Source: Flavobacterium okayamense (GTDB lineage: Bacteria > Bacteroidota > Bacteroidia > Flavobacteriales > Flavobacteriaceae). Taken from it: 64,000 bases of DNA. The translations under genes were made by a program, and so were the position numbers. Location: NCBI RefSeq assembly GCF_019702945.1, contig NZ_AP024749.1:620001-684000 (forward strand), read 5' to 3'. Within the stretch, counting starts at the first letter, position 1. Each line of letters starts with the position of its first letter. This document shows, in pieces, positions 9,919 to 56,147 of the stretch. The notes under the pieces are model-generated. The model was not told the DNA's origin. It searched no databases and saw only the letters and a program-made list of their open reading frames with translations.

Positions 9919-10527
9919 ATGACATTCGAATTACCAAAATTACCTTATGCATACGATGCATTAGAACCACATATTGATGCTAGAACAATGGAAATCCACC
10001 ATACTAAGCATCACAACGCTTATACTACAAACCTTAACAACGCTGTTGCCGGATCTGATTTAGAAGGAAAAACCATTGAAAACATTTTAATTAATTTAGA
10101 CATGAACAATGGAGCAGTTAGAAATAACGGCGGAGGTTTTTATAACCACAATTTATTTTGGACAGTAATGTCTCCAAATGGAGGCGGAAACCCAACAGGA
10201 GATTTAGCTGCTGCTATTGAAAAAGACTTTGGCTCTTTCGATGCATTTAAGGCTGAGTTTGCAAAAGCTGCTGCTACAAGATTTGGTTCAGGGTGGGCTT
10301 GGCTTTGTGTTCATAAAGGCGGAAAATTAGAAGTTTGCTCTTCAGCAAATCAGGACAACCCATTAATGCCAGGTATCGGTTGCGGTGGAACTCCAATTTT
10401 AGGCCTTGATGTATGGGAGCATGCATACTACCTTAATTATCAAAACAGAAGACCAGATTACATTGAAGCATTCTTTAATGTAGTTAATTGGGAAGAAGTT
10501 TCTAGAAGATTTGCTACTGAAAAATAA
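9919..10527 (+). CDS. superoxide dismutase, Fe/Mn type
   Basis: Converts superoxide to peroxide and oxygen in the cytosol. The protein has 202 residues with the full Fe/Mn-SOD pattern: the first ligand His27 in [10 protein letters not shown], a second His in FYNHNLFW, then D and H in [14 protein letters not shown]. Cofactor choice cannot be settled by eye. The ATG at 9919 gives the canonical N-terminus ([20 protein letters not shown]); an ATG at 9796 in the same frame would add 41 residues overlapping the AddA start and is rejected. It is monocistronic, with its own terminator at 10545-10576. Confidence 0.95.
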
Positions 10528-10544
10528 TTTACTTGCTACCAATT

Positions 10545-10576
10545 AAAAAAGGGATTTCTAATTGAAATCCCTTTTT
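10545..10576 (+). terminator. terminator of the superoxide dismutase gene
   Basis: Inverted repeat AAAAAAGGGATTTC / GAAATCCCTTTTTG around a short TAATT loop, ending in a T run, 18 bp past the stop codon. Confidence 0.85.
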
Positions 10577-10594
10577 GTTTTCTACATCTATATC

Positions 10595-10686
10595 AAAATA
10601 AAAAGGTGAAAGATTACTTTCACCCTTTTTGCCCCAAATCTACCATAAAACTTAACCTACTAATTTTCTGGTAAGGCTAAAGTAGT
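10595..10686 (-). ncRNA. repeat copy 1: candidate small RNA ending in a terminator hairpin
   Basis: First of three near-identical 92-bp units in the 594-bp gap between the converging sod and purF genes. Each unit holds an 8-bp perfect stem (GGTGAAAG/CTTTCACC, here 10605-10624) flanked by A5 and T5 runs. Next to it is a conserved stretch of about 56 bp ending GGCTAAAGTAGT. The conserved stretch lies 5' of the hairpin when read on the minus strand, so a minus-strand RNA of roughly 85 nt ending at the hairpin is the simplest reading. No conserved open frame or convincing promoter is visible. Strand and function are inference. Confidence 0.45.
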
Positions 10687-10781
10687 GCAGAACTTATATC
10701 GGTTCATAAAAAAATTGACAACTAACTAAAATACTCGACGAAATACAAAAGTTGTAAGTGTTTATTGATTTAACTTTAATA

Positions 10782-10873
10782 AAAATAAAAAGGTGAAAGA
10801 TCACTTTCACCCTTTTTGCCCCAAATCTACCATAAAACTTAACCTACTAATTTTCTGGTAAGGCTAAAGTAGT
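10782..10873 (-). ncRNA. repeat copy 2: candidate small RNA ending in a terminator hairpin
   Basis: Second copy, the same length as copy 1 and differing by one base in the hairpin loop (ATCA instead of ATTA). The rest of the conserved stretch appears identical. The spacer between copies 1 and 2 also shares motifs with the spacer between copies 2 and 3: an A-rich block before TTGAC, and ACAAAAGTTGTAAGT followed by TTTATTGATT at 10745-10771 and 10932-10958. The duplicated unit is therefore about 181-187 bp, not only the 92-bp core. Confidence 0.45.
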
Positions 10874-10962
10874 CTAGATTCTTAATATCATCACAAAAAA
10901 ATTGACGAGAAACAGAAAAAATCGATAAAAAACAAAAGTTGTAAGTATTTATTGATTTTTTT

Positions 10963-11056
10963 AAATAAAAAAGGTGAAAGATTACTTTCACCCTTTTTGC
11001 CCCAAATCTACCATAAAAACTTAACCTACTAATTTTTCTGGTAGGGCTAAAGTAAT
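10963..11056 (-). ncRNA. repeat copy 3: candidate small RNA ending in a terminator hairpin
   Basis: Third and most divergent copy: one extra A in CCATAAAAAC, an extra T in AATTTTTCTGG, and GTAGGG instead of GTAAGG. The 8-bp hairpin stem (10973-10992) is unchanged. It is the copy nearest the purF stop (11122), so its hairpin may also terminate purF. Sequence to the right of it no longer matches the other spacers. Confidence 0.45.
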
Positions 11057-11121
11057 ATAGGTAGCTTTATGTTTTTTAAAAATTAGATAAACTTCTTAAA
11101 TAATCGATAAAATGCACTTTA

Positions 11122-13017
11122 TTAGTATGCTCTTGCATCTTTTCCTTCATAAAAATTCATAAAAGCTCTGTTTACAACTCGGTTTCCTCCTGGTGTTGGA
11201 TAATCACCAGTAAAATACCAATCTCCTAAATTTTTAGGACATGCTTTATGCAAATCTTCAACCGATTGATAAATTACTTTAACTTTTGCTTTTGTTCCTT
11301 CTGGAGTTAACATTTCAGCAATTTTATCTGATATTTCTTCATCAGTAAATGGTGCATATATTTCTTTTACAAAATTTACAACATCTACATCTTTATAATT
11401 TTCTTGCGCTACTGATTTCTTATAAACCTCTTCAACAATATGGTAAAGATTTCTCTCTTTCAATAATTCTAAAGCTGCTCTAAATGCTACCAAACCTTCA
11501 AGCTTAGCCATATCAATTCCATAACAATCTGGATAACGGATTTGTGGAGCCGATGAAACTACAACAATTTGTTTTGGAGAAAGACGATCCATCATTTTAA
11601 TGATACTTTGTTTTAAGGTTGTACCACGAACAATACTATCATCAATAATTACTAAATTATCATTGGGTTTAACTACACCATACGTAACGTCATAAACGTG
11701 AGCGACTAAATCATCTCTGCTGCTATCTTCTGTAATAAAAGTTCTCAATTTAGCATCTTTAATAGCTACTTTTTCGGTACGAATACTTTCTCCTAAAATA
11801 CTTTTAATTTTATCTTCGCTTAAGTTTTCTGTAGAAAGAATTGCCTTTGTTTTTTTATTATCTAAATACTTATGAGCTGCTTCTACCATTCCGTAAAATG
11901 AAAGTTCTGCTGTATTTGGAATATAAGAAAAAACCGTGTTTTGAGTATCATTATCAATAGATTCTAGAACCTTAGGAAATATTAATTTTCCTAGATCTTT
12001 TCTTTCCTGATAAATTTCTGCATCGCCACCTCTTGAGAAATAAATTCGTTCAAATGAACATGCTTTCTTTTCTAGTGGTGTTCTCACTTCTTGGATTGAA
12101 ACACTTCCATTCTTTTTAATGATGATTGCATTTCCTGGTTCTAATTCCTGAACTTTTTCAAATGGGACATTAAAGACGGTTTGAATAACTGGTCTTTCTG
12201 AAGCTACAACAACAACTTCTTCATCTTCATAAAAGAATGCTGGACGAATTCCAGCAGGATCACGCATAACGAAAGAATCCCCATGACCGAAAAGTCCTGC
12301 CATAGCATAACCGCCATCCCAATTACGAGAAGCACGTTCTAAAATTCGCTGAATATTTAAACGCTCAGCGATAAATGCTGAAGCTTCTTTTTTAGTCATT
12401 CCTTCTTGCTTACACTGCTGATAAATATCGGCAACTTCATCATCTAAGAAATGACCTATTTTTTCCATTACAGTAACAGTATCGGCCATTTGTTTTGGAT
12501 GTTGACCAAGGTTAACCAAATCTTGGAACAACTCTTTAACATTCGTCATATTAAAGTTTCCAGCAACAATTAAATTACGATGCATCCAATTGTTTTGACG
12601 TAAGAATGGATGAACACTTTCGATACTATTTTTACCAAAAGTTCCATAGCGAACATGACCAAGAAATAGTTCAGCAACATATGGAATATGCTCTTTTTGT
12701 AAAGCAACATTATTCACAAATTCTGGATTTTCTTCTAAACCGCGACTAATGCGGTTATTAATTTGAGCAAAAATATCTTTAATAGGTTGTGCATCGTTTG
12801 AACGCACTCTGCTAATATACCGTTGACCAGGCTGAACATCAAGTTTAATACTTGCTAAACCCGCACCATCTTGTCCGCGATTGTGCTGTTTTTCTAAAAG
12901 CAAATACATTTTTTGAACACCATAAAAAGCAGAACCATACTTTTCTTTGTAGTATTCTAATGGTTTTTTTAATCGTAGTAAAGCAATACCACATTCGTGT
13001 TTAATTGCGTCGCTCAT
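11122..13017 (-). CDS. amidophosphoribosyltransferase-type protein, long form
   Basis: Class II glutamine amidotransferase fused to a phosphoribosyltransferase domain. The PurF reaction transfers glutamine nitrogen to PRPP to make phosphoribosylamine, the first committed purine step. The nucleophile Cys9 lies in HECGIALL after eight residues that could be an autoprocessed propeptide. The PRPP loop VIIDDSIVRGTT is near residue 459. At 631 residues it is about 120 longer than typical PurF, with extra sequence in the N-terminal half (around FLDDEVADIYQQCKQEGMTK) and at the C-terminus. Nearby purN supports a purine role, but a second, standard PurF elsewhere in the genome is possible, in which case this is a paralogue. 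Confidence 0.82.
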   Translation of the reverse strand: MSDAIKHECGIALLRLKKPLEYYKEKYGSAFYGVQKMYLLLEKQHNRGQDGAGLASIKLDVQPGQRYISRVRSNDAQPIKDIFAQINNRISRGLEENPEFVNNVALQKEHIPYVAELFLGHVRYGTFGKNSIESVHPFLRQNNWMHRNLIVAGNFNMTNVKELFQDLVNLGQHPKQMADTVTVMEKIGHFLDDEVADIYQQCKQEGMTKKEASAFIAERLNIQRILERASRNWDGGYAMAGLFGHGDSFVMRDPAGIRPAFFYEDEEVVVVASERPVIQTVFNVPFEKVQELEPGNAIIIKKNGSVSIQEVRTPLEKKACSFERIYFSRGGDAEIYQERKDLGKLIFPKVLESIDNDTQNTVFSYIPNTAELSFYGMVEAAHKYLDNKKTKAILSTENLSEDKIKSILGESIRTEKVAIKDAKLRTFITEDSSRDDLVAHVYDVTYGVVKPNDNLVIIDDSIVRGTTLKQSIIKMMDRLSPKQIVVVSSAPQIRYPDCYGIDMAKLEGLVAFRAALELLKERNLYHIVEEVYKKSVAQENYKDVDVVNFVKEIYAPFTDEEISDKIAEMLTPEGTKAKVKVIYQSVEDLHKACPKNLGDWYFTGDYPTPGGNRVVNRAFMNFYEGKDARAY

Positions 13018-19817: not shown

Positions 19818-20925
19818 ATTCTTTAAACTCAAACTTCAACTGAACGGAAATGCTTTTCTGTATTGGTTCTTTCTCTTTTTTAGATTCTGTGTTCAAATTA
19901 TGCAATGAAAGTCCGAGCAATCGAACGGAATTTTTTAATCTTTCTTGGTATAATAATTCCTTCCCAACATCAATAATTAAATTTTTGTCAGCTATAAAAT
20001 AAGGTAAAGTTTTACTTCGCGTTTGTAAGGTAAAATCGGAATATTTCAATTTTAAAGTAATTGTTTTTCCAGCAACTTTACTTTTTTGCAAACGCTTTTC
20101 AAGTTCGTTAGCAATACTTATAATCTTATCTTCCAAAAACACTTCCGAAGTTAAGTTTTCAAAGAAAGTGCGTTCAGCACCAACTGATTTCAAAGTTCTA
20201 TTTGGTTTAACCTGACTTCTATGAATTCCGCGACAAATTTGGTAATAATAATGTCCGCTATTGCTAAAATGCTTCTCTAAGAATTCAAGAGGCTTTTGTT
20301 TTAAATCGTATCCAGTAAATATCCCTAATTGATACATTTTTTCAGCAGTGACTTTACCTACACCATAAAATTTTTTAACATCTAGTTTTTCCAAAAACTC
20401 TTCAACTTCATCAGGGTTTACAGTTTTTTGTCCGTTTGGTTTATTATAATCGGAAGCAACTTTGGCAACAAATTTATTCACAGAAATTCCTGCTGAAGCA
20501 GTTAAGCCAACTTCATCATAAATGCGTTTTCTAATTTCTCGTGCAATTAAAGTGGCGCTCAGTAAATTCTTTTTATTTTCAGTTACATCTAAGTAAGCTT
20601 CGTCTAAAGAAAGCGGTTCAACTAAATCAGTATAGTCTAAAAATATCTTTCTAATTTTCTTTGAAATTTCTTTGTAGCGATCAAATCTTGGTCGAACGAA
20701 AATTAAATCCGGACATAAACGTTTCGCTTGAGCTCCACTCATAGCACTTTTTACACCAAATTTACGAGCTTCGTAACTTGCAGCCGAAACTACACCACGA
20801 ACTTCGCTTCCACCGACAGCTAAAGGTTTTCCTTTGAGTTCAGGATTATCCATTTGTTCTACAGACGCATAAAAGGCATCCATATCGATATGAATAATTT
20901 TTCTTTGTTTTTCTTCCTGACTCAT
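19816..20925 (-). CDS. dinB: DNA polymerase IV (Y family)
   Basis: Error-prone translesion polymerase of 369 residues. Catalytic carboxylates are at D14 (HIDMDAFYASVEQ) and D108/E109 (PLSLDEAYLDVT). The palm segment GISVNKFVAKVASDYNKP follows, then HhH and little-finger regions. The C-terminus ends ISVQLKFEF, which fits a sliding-clamp-binding tail (QLKFEF). It is divergent from the CYTH gene across 40 bp. I see no LexA-type palindrome. Confidence 0.95.
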   Translation of the reverse strand: MSQEEKQRKIIHIDMDAFYASVEQMDNPELKGKPLAVGGSEVRGVVSAASYEARKFGVKSAMSGAQAKRLCPDLIFVRPRFDRYKEISKKIRKIFLDYTDLVEPLSLDEAYLDVTENKKNLLSATLIAREIRKRIYDEVGLTASAGISVNKFVAKVASDYNKPNGQKTVNPDEVEEFLEKLDVKKFYGVGKVTAEKMYQLGIFTGYDLKQKPLEFLEKHFSNSGHYYYQICRGIHRSQVKPNRTLKSVGAERTFFENLTSEVFLEDKIISIANELEKRLQKSKVAGKTITLKLKYSDFTLQTRSKTLPYFIADKNLIIDVGKELLYQERLKNSVRLLGLSLHNLNTESKKEKEPIQKSISVQLKFEFKE

Positions 20926-54986: not shown

Positions 54987-56147
54987 ATGAACAATTTCGA
55001 ATTATACAATCCTGTTAACTATGTCTTTGGAAAAGGACAAATCGCAAAACTTTCTGATTTAGTAACTTCAAAAAAAATTCTGCTAACGTATGGTGGTGGA
55101 AGTATTTTTAAAAATGGTGTTTACGACCAAGTTAAAGCAGCGCTTTCTGGAGTTGAAGTAATTGAATTTGGTGGAATTGAACCCAATCCACGCTTCGAAA
55201 CGTTACTAAAAGCCATTGAAGTCATTCGTAAAGAAAAAATTGATTTCATTTTAGCTGTTGGCGGCGGAAGTGTGATTGATGGAACTAAATTTATTTCGGC
55301 AGCAGTTCATTTTGAAGGTAACGAAGCTGATATTTTACATAAACGCATCTTATTTAAAGATAATTCAAAAGTAGTTCCTTTTGGAACGGTTTTAACCTTA
55401 CCAGCAACGGGTTCTGAAATGAATTCTGGTGCTGTAGTAACTATTGAAGCTACACAAGAAAAATTGACATTAGGCGGAAGTGCTTTGTTTCCAGTTTTCT
55501 CTATTGTGGATCCTACAGTAATTGAATCATTGCCAAAGAGACAATTGCAAAATGGTGTTGTGGATGCTTTTACACACGTAATGGAACAATATTTAACCTA
55601 TAATCATGATGCGTTACTTCAAGATAGAATTGCAGAAGGCATTTTACAGACTTTAGTAGAAATTGGTCCGAAAGTAATTGAAAATCCAACCGATTATAAA
55701 TTGGCTTCCAACTTTGTTTGGTGTGCAACAATGGCGTTAAATGGTTTACTGAATAAAGGTGTTCCAACCGATTGGGCGACGCACATGATTGGTCACGAAT
55801 TAACCGCTTTATACGAAATCGATCATGCCAGAACATTGGCTATTATTGCTCCAAACTTATATAGAGTAATGTTTGATTCGAAAAAAGAAAAATTAGTACA
55901 ATACGGAAAACGCGTTTGGAATTTAACTGGAACTGATGAAGAAATTGCACAAAAAGCGATTGAAAAAACTACAGAATTTTTCCAAAGTGTAGGCATGAAA
56001 ACAAAACTATCTGAAAACACCGAAAACTATCAAGAAACAGCTTCTTTTATTGTAAATCGATTTGAAGAAAGAGGTTGGAAAGGTTTAGGCGAAAAGCAAT
56101 TGGTAACCTTAGATAAGATAAAAGAAATTGTAGAAATGAGCTATTAA
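54987..56147 (+). CDS. iron-containing alcohol dehydrogenase
   Basis: A 386-residue group III alcohol dehydrogenase. The NAD(P)-binding GGGSVIDGTKFI lies near residue 95 and the metal site in DAFTHVMEQYLTY and THMIGHELTALYEIDHARTLAI (Asp plus three His). The N-terminus NFELYNPVNYVFGKG fits the BdhA/YqhD-like branch that reduces aldehydes or makes butanol. The real substrate is unknown. It is separated from the upstream genes by the extragenic element. Confidence 0.9.
   Translation: MNNFELYNPVNYVFGKGQIAKLSDLVTSKKILLTYGGGSIFKNGVYDQVKAALSGVEVIEFGGIEPNPRFETLLKAIEVIRKEKIDFILAVGGGSVIDGTKFISAAVHFEGNEADILHKRILFKDNSKVVPFGTVLTLPATGSEMNSGAVVTIEATQEKLTLGGSALFPVFSIVDPTVIESLPKRQLQNGVVDAFTHVMEQYLTYNHDALLQDRIAEGILQTLVEIGPKVIENPTDYKLASNFVWCATMALNGLLNKGVPTDWATHMIGHELTALYEIDHARTLAIIAPNLYRVMFDSKKEKLVQYGKRVWNLTGTDEEIAQKAIEKTTEFFQSVGMKTKLSENTENYQETASFIVNRFEERGWKGLGEKQLVTLDKIKEIVEMSY

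Follow-up and report, generated by a model that had tools for sequence, protein, structure and literature searches.

A tandem array of putative small-RNA genes between purF and sod in the Flavobacteriaceae, with a LytTR-type operator and a candidate small-protein target outside Flavobacterium

The window analysed here is a stretch of 64,000 nucleotides of Flavobacterium okayamense (RefSeq assembly GCF_019702945.1, contig NZ_AP024749.1, positions 620,001 to 684,000 of the forward strand), and all positions below count from its first letter. It contains an array of tandem repeat units between a superoxide dismutase gene (sod) and a PurF-like gene, the two being convergent with their 3' ends towards the array. 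The initial annotation had named these two neighbours, and profile matches agree with it, the PurF-like gene matching TIGR01134 at E 5.3e-37, yet with 128 bits against a cut-off of 350. The features of the locus are the following:

9919..10527, plus strand: Fe/Mn superoxide dismutase, conserved neighbour (Pfam Sod_Fe_N/C)
10546..10576, plus strand: terminator of sod, outside the array (terminator scan)
10598..10672, minus strand: predicted sRNA copy 1, with its 5' end at about 10672 and an approximate 3' end; it comprises the 5' hairpin, the linker and a terminator hairpin at 10605-10624
10677..10684, minus strand: -7 box TACTTTAG of copy 1
10711..10748, minus strand: operator of copy 1, a direct repeat with the eighth-best PWM score (12.9) of all positions in the 64 kb
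10785..10859, minus strand: predicted sRNA copy 2, ends approximate; terminator stem at 10792-10811
10864..10871, minus strand: -7 box TACTTTAG of copy 2
10898..10935, minus strand: operator of copy 2, a direct repeat with the second-best PWM score (15.8) of all positions in the 64 kb
10965..11042, minus strand: predicted sRNA copy 3, proximal to purF, ends approximate; terminator stem at 10973-10992
11047..11054, minus strand: -7 box TACTTTAG of copy 3
11080..11117, minus strand: operator of copy 3, a direct repeat with the best PWM score (24.9) of all positions in the 64 kb
11122..13017, minus strand: PurF-like amidophosphoribosyltransferase (TIGR01134), a conserved neighbour that precedes the array in the direction of the RNA

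The operator matrix was trained on 326 distinct segments that include the window's own three, so that the scores given for the window are slightly self-trained; its best operator-like sites outside the array lie at 20722 on the minus strand (score 15.3) and at 55637 on the plus strand (score 15.1).

The repeat analysis bears out the proposed layout of three tandem units with a period of about 181-187 bp, as their start-to-start distances are 187 and 181-183 bp. Copies 1 and 2 share 86% identity across 180 nt (repeat pair D1), and repeat families of 63, 27 and 21 nt each occur in 3 copies in the window. The gap had been called non-coding, and the ORF list of the window indeed holds no ORF of at least 60 aa within the array; a scan of the whole window returned no tRNA or tmRNA. 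An Rfam search, as suggested at the outset, gave 0 matches in the window, and at loose thresholds 20 matches between 10480 and 11130, all unrelated and below the gathering score. Terminator-like sites number 6, compared with a mean of 1.3 in shuffles. The 8-bp stem GGTGAAAG/CTTTCACC, with its A and T runs on either side, is identical in all copies of the window as described earlier, except that the flanking run described as A5 is A6 in copy 3. Within the 2.78-Mb single-contig genome, strong matches are confined to these three copies (E 1.2e-32 or better; next E 0.068).

For a family-wide comparison 361 units were collected and, once 12 without a recognised hairpin 1 had been dropped, 349 were aligned; counts over these units are not independent, because close relatives and the window's own three copies are included. 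On the minus strand the units share one plan, which consists of a direct-repeat operator of about 38 bp, a -7 box TAnnTTTG, a 5' hairpin (hairpin 1), a G-rich linker and an intrinsic terminator. The linker AGATTTGGGGCAAA, placed between hairpin 1 and the terminator, is nearly invariant across the 349 units. The loop CAUNAGUAGGUUAAG and the linker segment AGAUUUGGGGCAAA are proposed as the parts with which the RNA would pair.

At -12 to -5 ahead of hairpin 1 the box reads TAnnTTTG with frequencies of T.89, A.89, T.95, T.98, T.66 and G.60 in the 349 units. For Flavobacterium psychrophilum, the sigma-A element is described as TAnnTTTG at -12 to -5 from the start site (PMC9723704); given the same motif at the same distance, the start was placed on the base with which hairpin 1 opens. 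A TTTG at -33 is not clearly visible across the 349 aligned units; instead, two half-sites GCnTTTnATC are found 20 bp apart. Column correlation reaches 0.53 at lag 20 (next best 0.27, at lag 21), and the half-sites of a unit agree at 8.7/16 positions at lag 20 versus 4.1-5.4 at lags 18, 19, 21 and 22. Mean mismatches to GCATTTCAT are 3.85/9 at -73 and 3.87/9 at -53, as against 5.22-7.41 at the other 68 offsets. Binding sites of LytTR regulators are described as repeats of 9-11 nt with gaps of 11-13 nt (PMC4847170, PMC6193735), and the half-site of the LytTR regulator YpdB is given as GGCATTTCAT (PMC4847170). A period of 20 bp corresponds to 9-nt repeats with an 11-nt gap and thus falls within the LytTR spacing class. 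Compared with YpdB as presented in that report, the array operator is alike in half-site and spacing class, with a period of 20 bp against the 21 counted in the YpdB oligo (PMC4847170). The regulator acting at this operator most likely belongs to the LytTR family.

The initial annotation had read the array as a multicopy RNA on the minus strand that ends at the hairpin, a view supported by the conserved block enclosed between the TAnnTTTG box and the putative terminator. Folding alone cannot pick the strand, because the opposite strand folds about equally well (z-scores of -3.5, -3.8 and -5.6, compared with -4.1, -4.8 and -2.4 for the RNA strand of the same three examples); promoter and operator pick the minus strand. 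That the product could instead be a plus-strand RNA or a tiny ORF (MVDLGQK...) is suggested by an ATG after AGG in the RNA and by the folding of the plus strand, but the position of the -7 box and operator on the minus strand speaks against the former. As for a peptide product of the core ATGGTAGATTTGGGG, its five core codons show no synonymous change save GGA in 3/349 units, and the following A-run is of variable length (five A in 143 units, six in 135, seven in 54), so the reading frame shifts, which argues against the peptide. This candidate was rejected, and either form of this explanation appears highly improbable.

Conservation across the family refines the earlier picture of a kept stem amid varying sequence. 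It applies inside the window, whereas family-wide it is the linker that stays constant and the terminator stem that varies, with paired changes that preserve its pairing. Double-change cells, counted over both helices, amount to 56 as compared with a shuffled mean of 21.8 (a value equalled in 0/500 shuffles); counted by pairs, double changes are unremarkable (6 pairs vs 4.8 expected, a value reached by 91/500 shuffles). The suggested search for compensatory changes thus succeeds for the terminator stem and fails for hairpin 1, in which 93% of cells are paired and no compensatory change was found among the 349 units. These observations also bear on the proposal, raised at the outset as an alternative, that the array consists of amplified transcription-terminator modules without small-RNA function. 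The converging genes and an A/T-flanked hairpin usable on both strands would fit such modules. Against them stands the fact that an operator, a promoter and a nearly unchanging linker recur in every unit along with the hairpin; the loop is repeated and conserved as well, the hairpin varies with paired changes, and sod has its own terminator. Simple terminators had been expected to leave homologues that keep the hairpin only, and the opposite is seen, namely a near-invariant linker next to a co-varying stem. We consider this alternative to have very little chance of being correct.

The core was searched across the family as initially proposed, and relatives are widespread. BLAST with the 102-base core matches 242/299 sampled Flavobacteriaceae genomes and 195/236 genera, and BLAST with one unit matches 82/101 sampled genomes of the genus Flavobacterium, tallies that may partly include target leaders (described below) where a match covers linker and loop only; some members of the family are without the RNA gene. 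A covariance model built on 59 aligned units matches, at E 0.001, 40/246 genomes of the order and 11/247 of the class. All its matches of at least 70 bits lie inside Flavobacteriaceae; in the class sample strong ones occur in 5/247 genomes, all Flavobacteriaceae, and those of 35.7-40 bits in 6 other genomes look like chance, as the matches in other families, at 34-40 bits, probably are throughout. An exact-pattern scan returned at least 80 loci, among them Flavobacterium, Winogradskyella, Aquimarina, Formosa and Salegentibacter; the matches listed also include a few generic MAGs and one Lentimicrobium MAG, and viral contigs gave 0 matches. Among these listed loci the upstream ORF is PurF-like in 62/73 and the downstream ORF a dismutase in 55/75, the typical order being purF on the RNA strand with sod opposed. 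Genomes carry 1-6 matches, mostly in one tandem array at purF-sod. Two units are present in 62 of the 98 distinct loci with at least two, three in 22, four in 13 and five in one, at a median spacing of 203 bp (149 spacings). The variable base in TT(T/C)ATGG is C in the first copy and T in the last in 33/98 loci and the reverse in 0, which suggests two old positional types. Three matches (L129, L160, L170) were rejected as sRNA genes at a second locus. With CoA-transferase genes and ABC-transporter genes beside them, they most plausibly represent the target leader read in antisense; the synteny tally enters them under 'other' neighbours, and the 349 units do not include them.

A search of 41 family genomes for the linker complement CCCCAAATCTA yielded 124 matches, a number that includes the arrays, and its reversed control yielded 36. 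Sixty stretches were examined, with 18 sites in G102, G103, G115, G122, G125, G135 and G137 left out; three of them (L347, L359, L368) are further sRNA units, and nine share one gene, a 41-42-aa ORF with a C-terminal end that is mostly KK(I/V/L)FML. This gene is placed between a scoB-type CoA-transferase gene and, nearly always, an oppF-like ABC-transporter gene, both of which flank it in 27/30 loci. Protein profile A2, built from eight of the small-protein sequences, matches 60/120 family genomes at E 0.01 and 37 at 1.3e-8 or better. The unannotated gene of about 40 codons is strongly matched in 37/119 genera other than Flavobacterium, and the remaining 82/119 gave no strong match to profile A2. 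Three examples had no match in Pfam or NCBIfam, and none of 64 homologues bears a functional name. Two side observations stem from the same stretches. In L331 (G105:C12) the small-protein reading frame is broken and the sRNA-complementary sites are still there, and a separate repeated element, CCCCAAATCTACCATAACTTACCT..., occurs three times in two genomes (L365, L367 and L369 in G131 and G107).

The profile search supplied 30 loci, of which 28 were scored, since L403 and L413 hold the ORF but failed the automatic ORF rule. In 28/28 leaders the best duplex with the 45-nt core of the RNA lies between -34 and -56 kcal/mol, compared with means of -17 to -20 and a lowest single value of -30.8 kcal/mol in shuffled controls. 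The longest perfect complement measures 10-24 nt with a median of 15 (shuffled median 7, maximum 12 of 560), and in 5/28 leaders it is no longer than the shuffled maximum; the shuffles behind the duplex, complement and operator scores preserve base, not dinucleotide, content. This complementarity is not built in by the search, because 20/28 leaders are outside the profile's eight, the N-terminus of profile A2 itself overlapping the second pairing site. The main site (...CCCCAAATCTACCATAAACTTA...ACTTATG) stretches between about -38 and the start codon, the second is located near codons 6-12 of the small protein, and some leaders have a third or fourth. Among 20 further loci, 8/8 leaders with a full or near-full ORF pair at -31 to -47 kcal/mol, two diverged target genes keep the operator with weak pairing (-24.5 and -22.5 kcal/mol), and 10 gave no ORF by script.

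Codons at the second pairing site are nearly frozen, with N as AAT in 28/28, L as CTA in 26/28 and P as CCT in 22/23, though variation is seen at its edges, in P9 and T13. Towards the C-terminus, residues conserved to a similar degree are each encoded by more than one codon (four for L36, three for T37, and two each for K39, F41 and L43). Frozen codons in the one region and free ones in the other suggest that the gene seems both to encode a protein and to bear a nucleotide-level constraint at the pairing site. The usual hydropathy threshold for a membrane span is 1.6, and the best 19-residue Kyte-Doolittle mean of the small protein has a median of 0.54 and a maximum of 1.37.

The same operator precedes both partners. 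A weight matrix built from the sRNA promoters only finds it upstream of 28/28 small-protein genes, with a lowest score of 14.2 and a median of 20.5, equal to the sRNA promoters' own median; shuffles give a median of 2.5 and a maximum of 14.0. On the reverse strand of the leaders the median is 4.9, with 8/28 above the 95% shuffled line. The two genes also occur together, as BLAST detects the RNA in 37/37 genomes with a strong small-protein match versus 60/83 others (Fisher p 9e-5), and in 36/37 versus 57/83 at a cut-off of 1e-6 (p 3e-4). Searched as a pattern in 41 genomes, the operator has 85 matches and its reversed control 22; by visual count, arrays account for 19 of the 85 and a target locus for one. 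Further occurrences (L289-L328) precede choice-of-anchor-L, thermolysin-type M4 metallopeptidase and ammonium transporter genes, as well as histidine-phosphatase genes that resemble SixA, below the cut-off of the SixA model. The genes behind the direct-repeat operator form a candidate LytTR regulon.

Judging from sequence evidence, we propose with a probability of roughly three in four that the units are tandem genes for a trans-acting sRNA under a LytTR-type operator, and that outside Flavobacterium this RNA blocks translation of the ~40-aa protein. Each unit would be a complete gene for an RNA of about 75 nt on the minus strand. A response regulator would bind the two half-sites 20 bp apart and activate the TAnnTTTG promoter; we infer that transcription then starts at the foot of hairpin 1 and ends at the terminator hairpin, and the tandem copies may raise dosage. 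In a sizeable share of the genera other than Flavobacterium (37/119), a main target would be the mRNA of the ~40-aa protein, mostly in the scoB/oppF-like setting, and the operator would drive this mRNA as well as the sRNA. Pairing at both sites, the one reaching from about -38 up to the start codon and the other close to codons 6-12, would be expected to block translation initiation, so that the sRNA and the small-protein gene would constitute an incoherent feed-forward pair.

It counts against this mechanism that a leader with several sites could equally soak up the RNA. The main rival explanation takes up this point and regards the scoB-oppF mRNA leader as a sponge whose two to four sites titrate the RNA, with the ~40-aa peptide being secondary. 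The multiple sites in one leader fit a sponge, and so does the presence of the RNA in many genomes without a strong small-protein match, as well as in Flavobacterium, from which it follows that the RNA should have other partners. However, the best site is usually on the start codon, and the C-terminus of the peptide is conserved with synonymous codon change, which makes the sponge unlikely in our view. A trans-encoded type I toxin-antitoxin system, with a toxic peptide and the small RNA as antitoxin, would also join a small-peptide mRNA to a strongly complementary RNA, as found in genera outside Flavobacterium, and a multicopy RNA and peptides of ~40 aa would be in keeping with it. In pairs of the TisB/IstR-1 type the sRNA likewise pairs with the leader of a small-peptide mRNA; unlike these, the pair described here has a peptide of non-membrane type and a shared operator, and its likeness does not imply toxicity. 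By hydropathy the peptide is not membrane-spanning and thus falls outside the hydrophobic class, the conserved synteny at both loci and the shared operator suggest housekeeping control, and 60/97 genomes with the RNA have no strong match to the peptide gene. A toxin-antitoxin system is hence a distinctly doubtful explanation.

CiaR and LisR belong to a regulator class other than LytTR. The array resembles the csRNAs under CiaR (PMC4507080) and LhrC under LisR (PMC4132741, PMC5880928), described as sibling sRNAs with response-regulator-activated copies, in unrelated bacteria. Closer at hand, FopS of Bacteroides thetaiotaomicron is presented as a set of paralogous base-pairing sRNAs of ~65-70 nt that are expressed from sigma-ABfr promoters and repress by pairing near start codons; they are reported in 12-15 copies per genome, intergenic, antisense or 3'UTR-derived, with SusC-type targets, RbpB as partner and a range in the Bacteroidaceae (PMC11697453). 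The array RNA is like FopS, as described there, in being a short multicopy Bacteroidota sRNA with several copies per genome and a TAnnTTTG-type promoter. It differs from that description in its 1-6 matches per genome, mostly in one purF-sod array, in its candidate small-protein target and in its LytTR-type operator. In range, too, it is unlike FopS as described, the covariance model of the array RNA giving no strong match outside Flavobacteriaceae in the class sample. Rfp18 of F. psychrophilum is, according to its description, likewise intergenic, conserved beyond one Flavobacterium species and strongly folded by prediction, and it is said to pair via its third stem-loop with metalloprotease and adhesin mRNAs (PMC9723704). 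For the array RNA two hairpins are predicted; the comparison with Rfp18 is one of descriptions, and the array RNA may be identical with Rfp18 or with another Rfp RNA.

No description of the locus or of the RNA/small-protein pair was found in searches of the open-licence PMC literature. With Rfp18 set beside it by description only, we hold it an even bet that the purF/sod multicopy RNA and the scoB/oppF ~40-aa protein represent an undescribed Flavobacteriaceae pair in which one LytTR-type regulator acts on both, the RNA gates translation at two or more sites, and the partner has been swapped in Flavobacterium for other small-protein mRNAs, of which 3/67 leaders at -36 kcal/mol or better would be instances, with the RNA gene left where it was. 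To our knowledge, few Flavobacteriaceae small RNAs have a known target. The present analysis names a locus, supplies a logic for its promoter and a regulator class that can be tested, and proposes for genera outside Flavobacterium a target with swappable pairing sites. It provides a regulatory setting for a 'hypothetical protein' whose codons are nearly frozen at pairing sites, and points to an RNA gene that is kept at one place in many members of a marine, soil and freshwater family.

The species of the window has an intact RNA gene, and the small-protein gene was not found in the genus Flavobacterium: 24/101 genomes match at E 0.1 or better, which is noise, the best match (E 0.003) falls on the array itself, and the window's genome is absent from the matches of profile A2. 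The linker complement with up to 3 mismatches occurs at 29 sites in this genome, 3 of them in the array, versus 22 for the reversed pattern, and hence without clear enrichment beyond the array; none of the leaders there was conspicuously complementary. One 5' site, in front of an ORF for a small lipoprotein-like product (L239), was left aside as unsupported.

Across 41 Flavobacterium genomes the complement search returned 100 matches, arrays included, against 18 in the control. Forty stretches were examined (two sites in G014 left out), of which L483 is an sRNA unit. One leader is clearly target-like; it precedes a 71-aa ORF and pairs at -40.3 kcal/mol compared with a shuffled mean of -15.4. 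The family of this ORF comprises small proteins present in 93/101 Flavobacterium genomes. As a general target in the genus, the YDYTK family of 60-71 aa was rejected, with only 6/67 leaders at -28 kcal/mol or below and 3/67 at -36 or better, some loci being included twice among the 67; the copy in the window's genome is at shuffled level (-15.1 vs -16.2 kcal/mol). Two examples of the family had no match in Pfam or NCBIfam. Its proteins carry ..DYTKSxLERVSFDPxLFxKELxKA (G000:C1:2380160-2380342, minus strand; loci L457, L487-L516 and L523). A hairpin-like AAGAT-AACCCCAA-ATCTT can be recognised by eye in some of the leaders, and a few copies combine strong sRNA complementarity with the operator. 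At about position 990 on the minus strand of L461 and L467 (G005, G031), inspection by eye shows TTTGCCCCAAATCTATC and, behind it, a hairpin resembling a terminator where a gene has its 3' end; this element is possibly a 3'UTR sponge for the sRNA.
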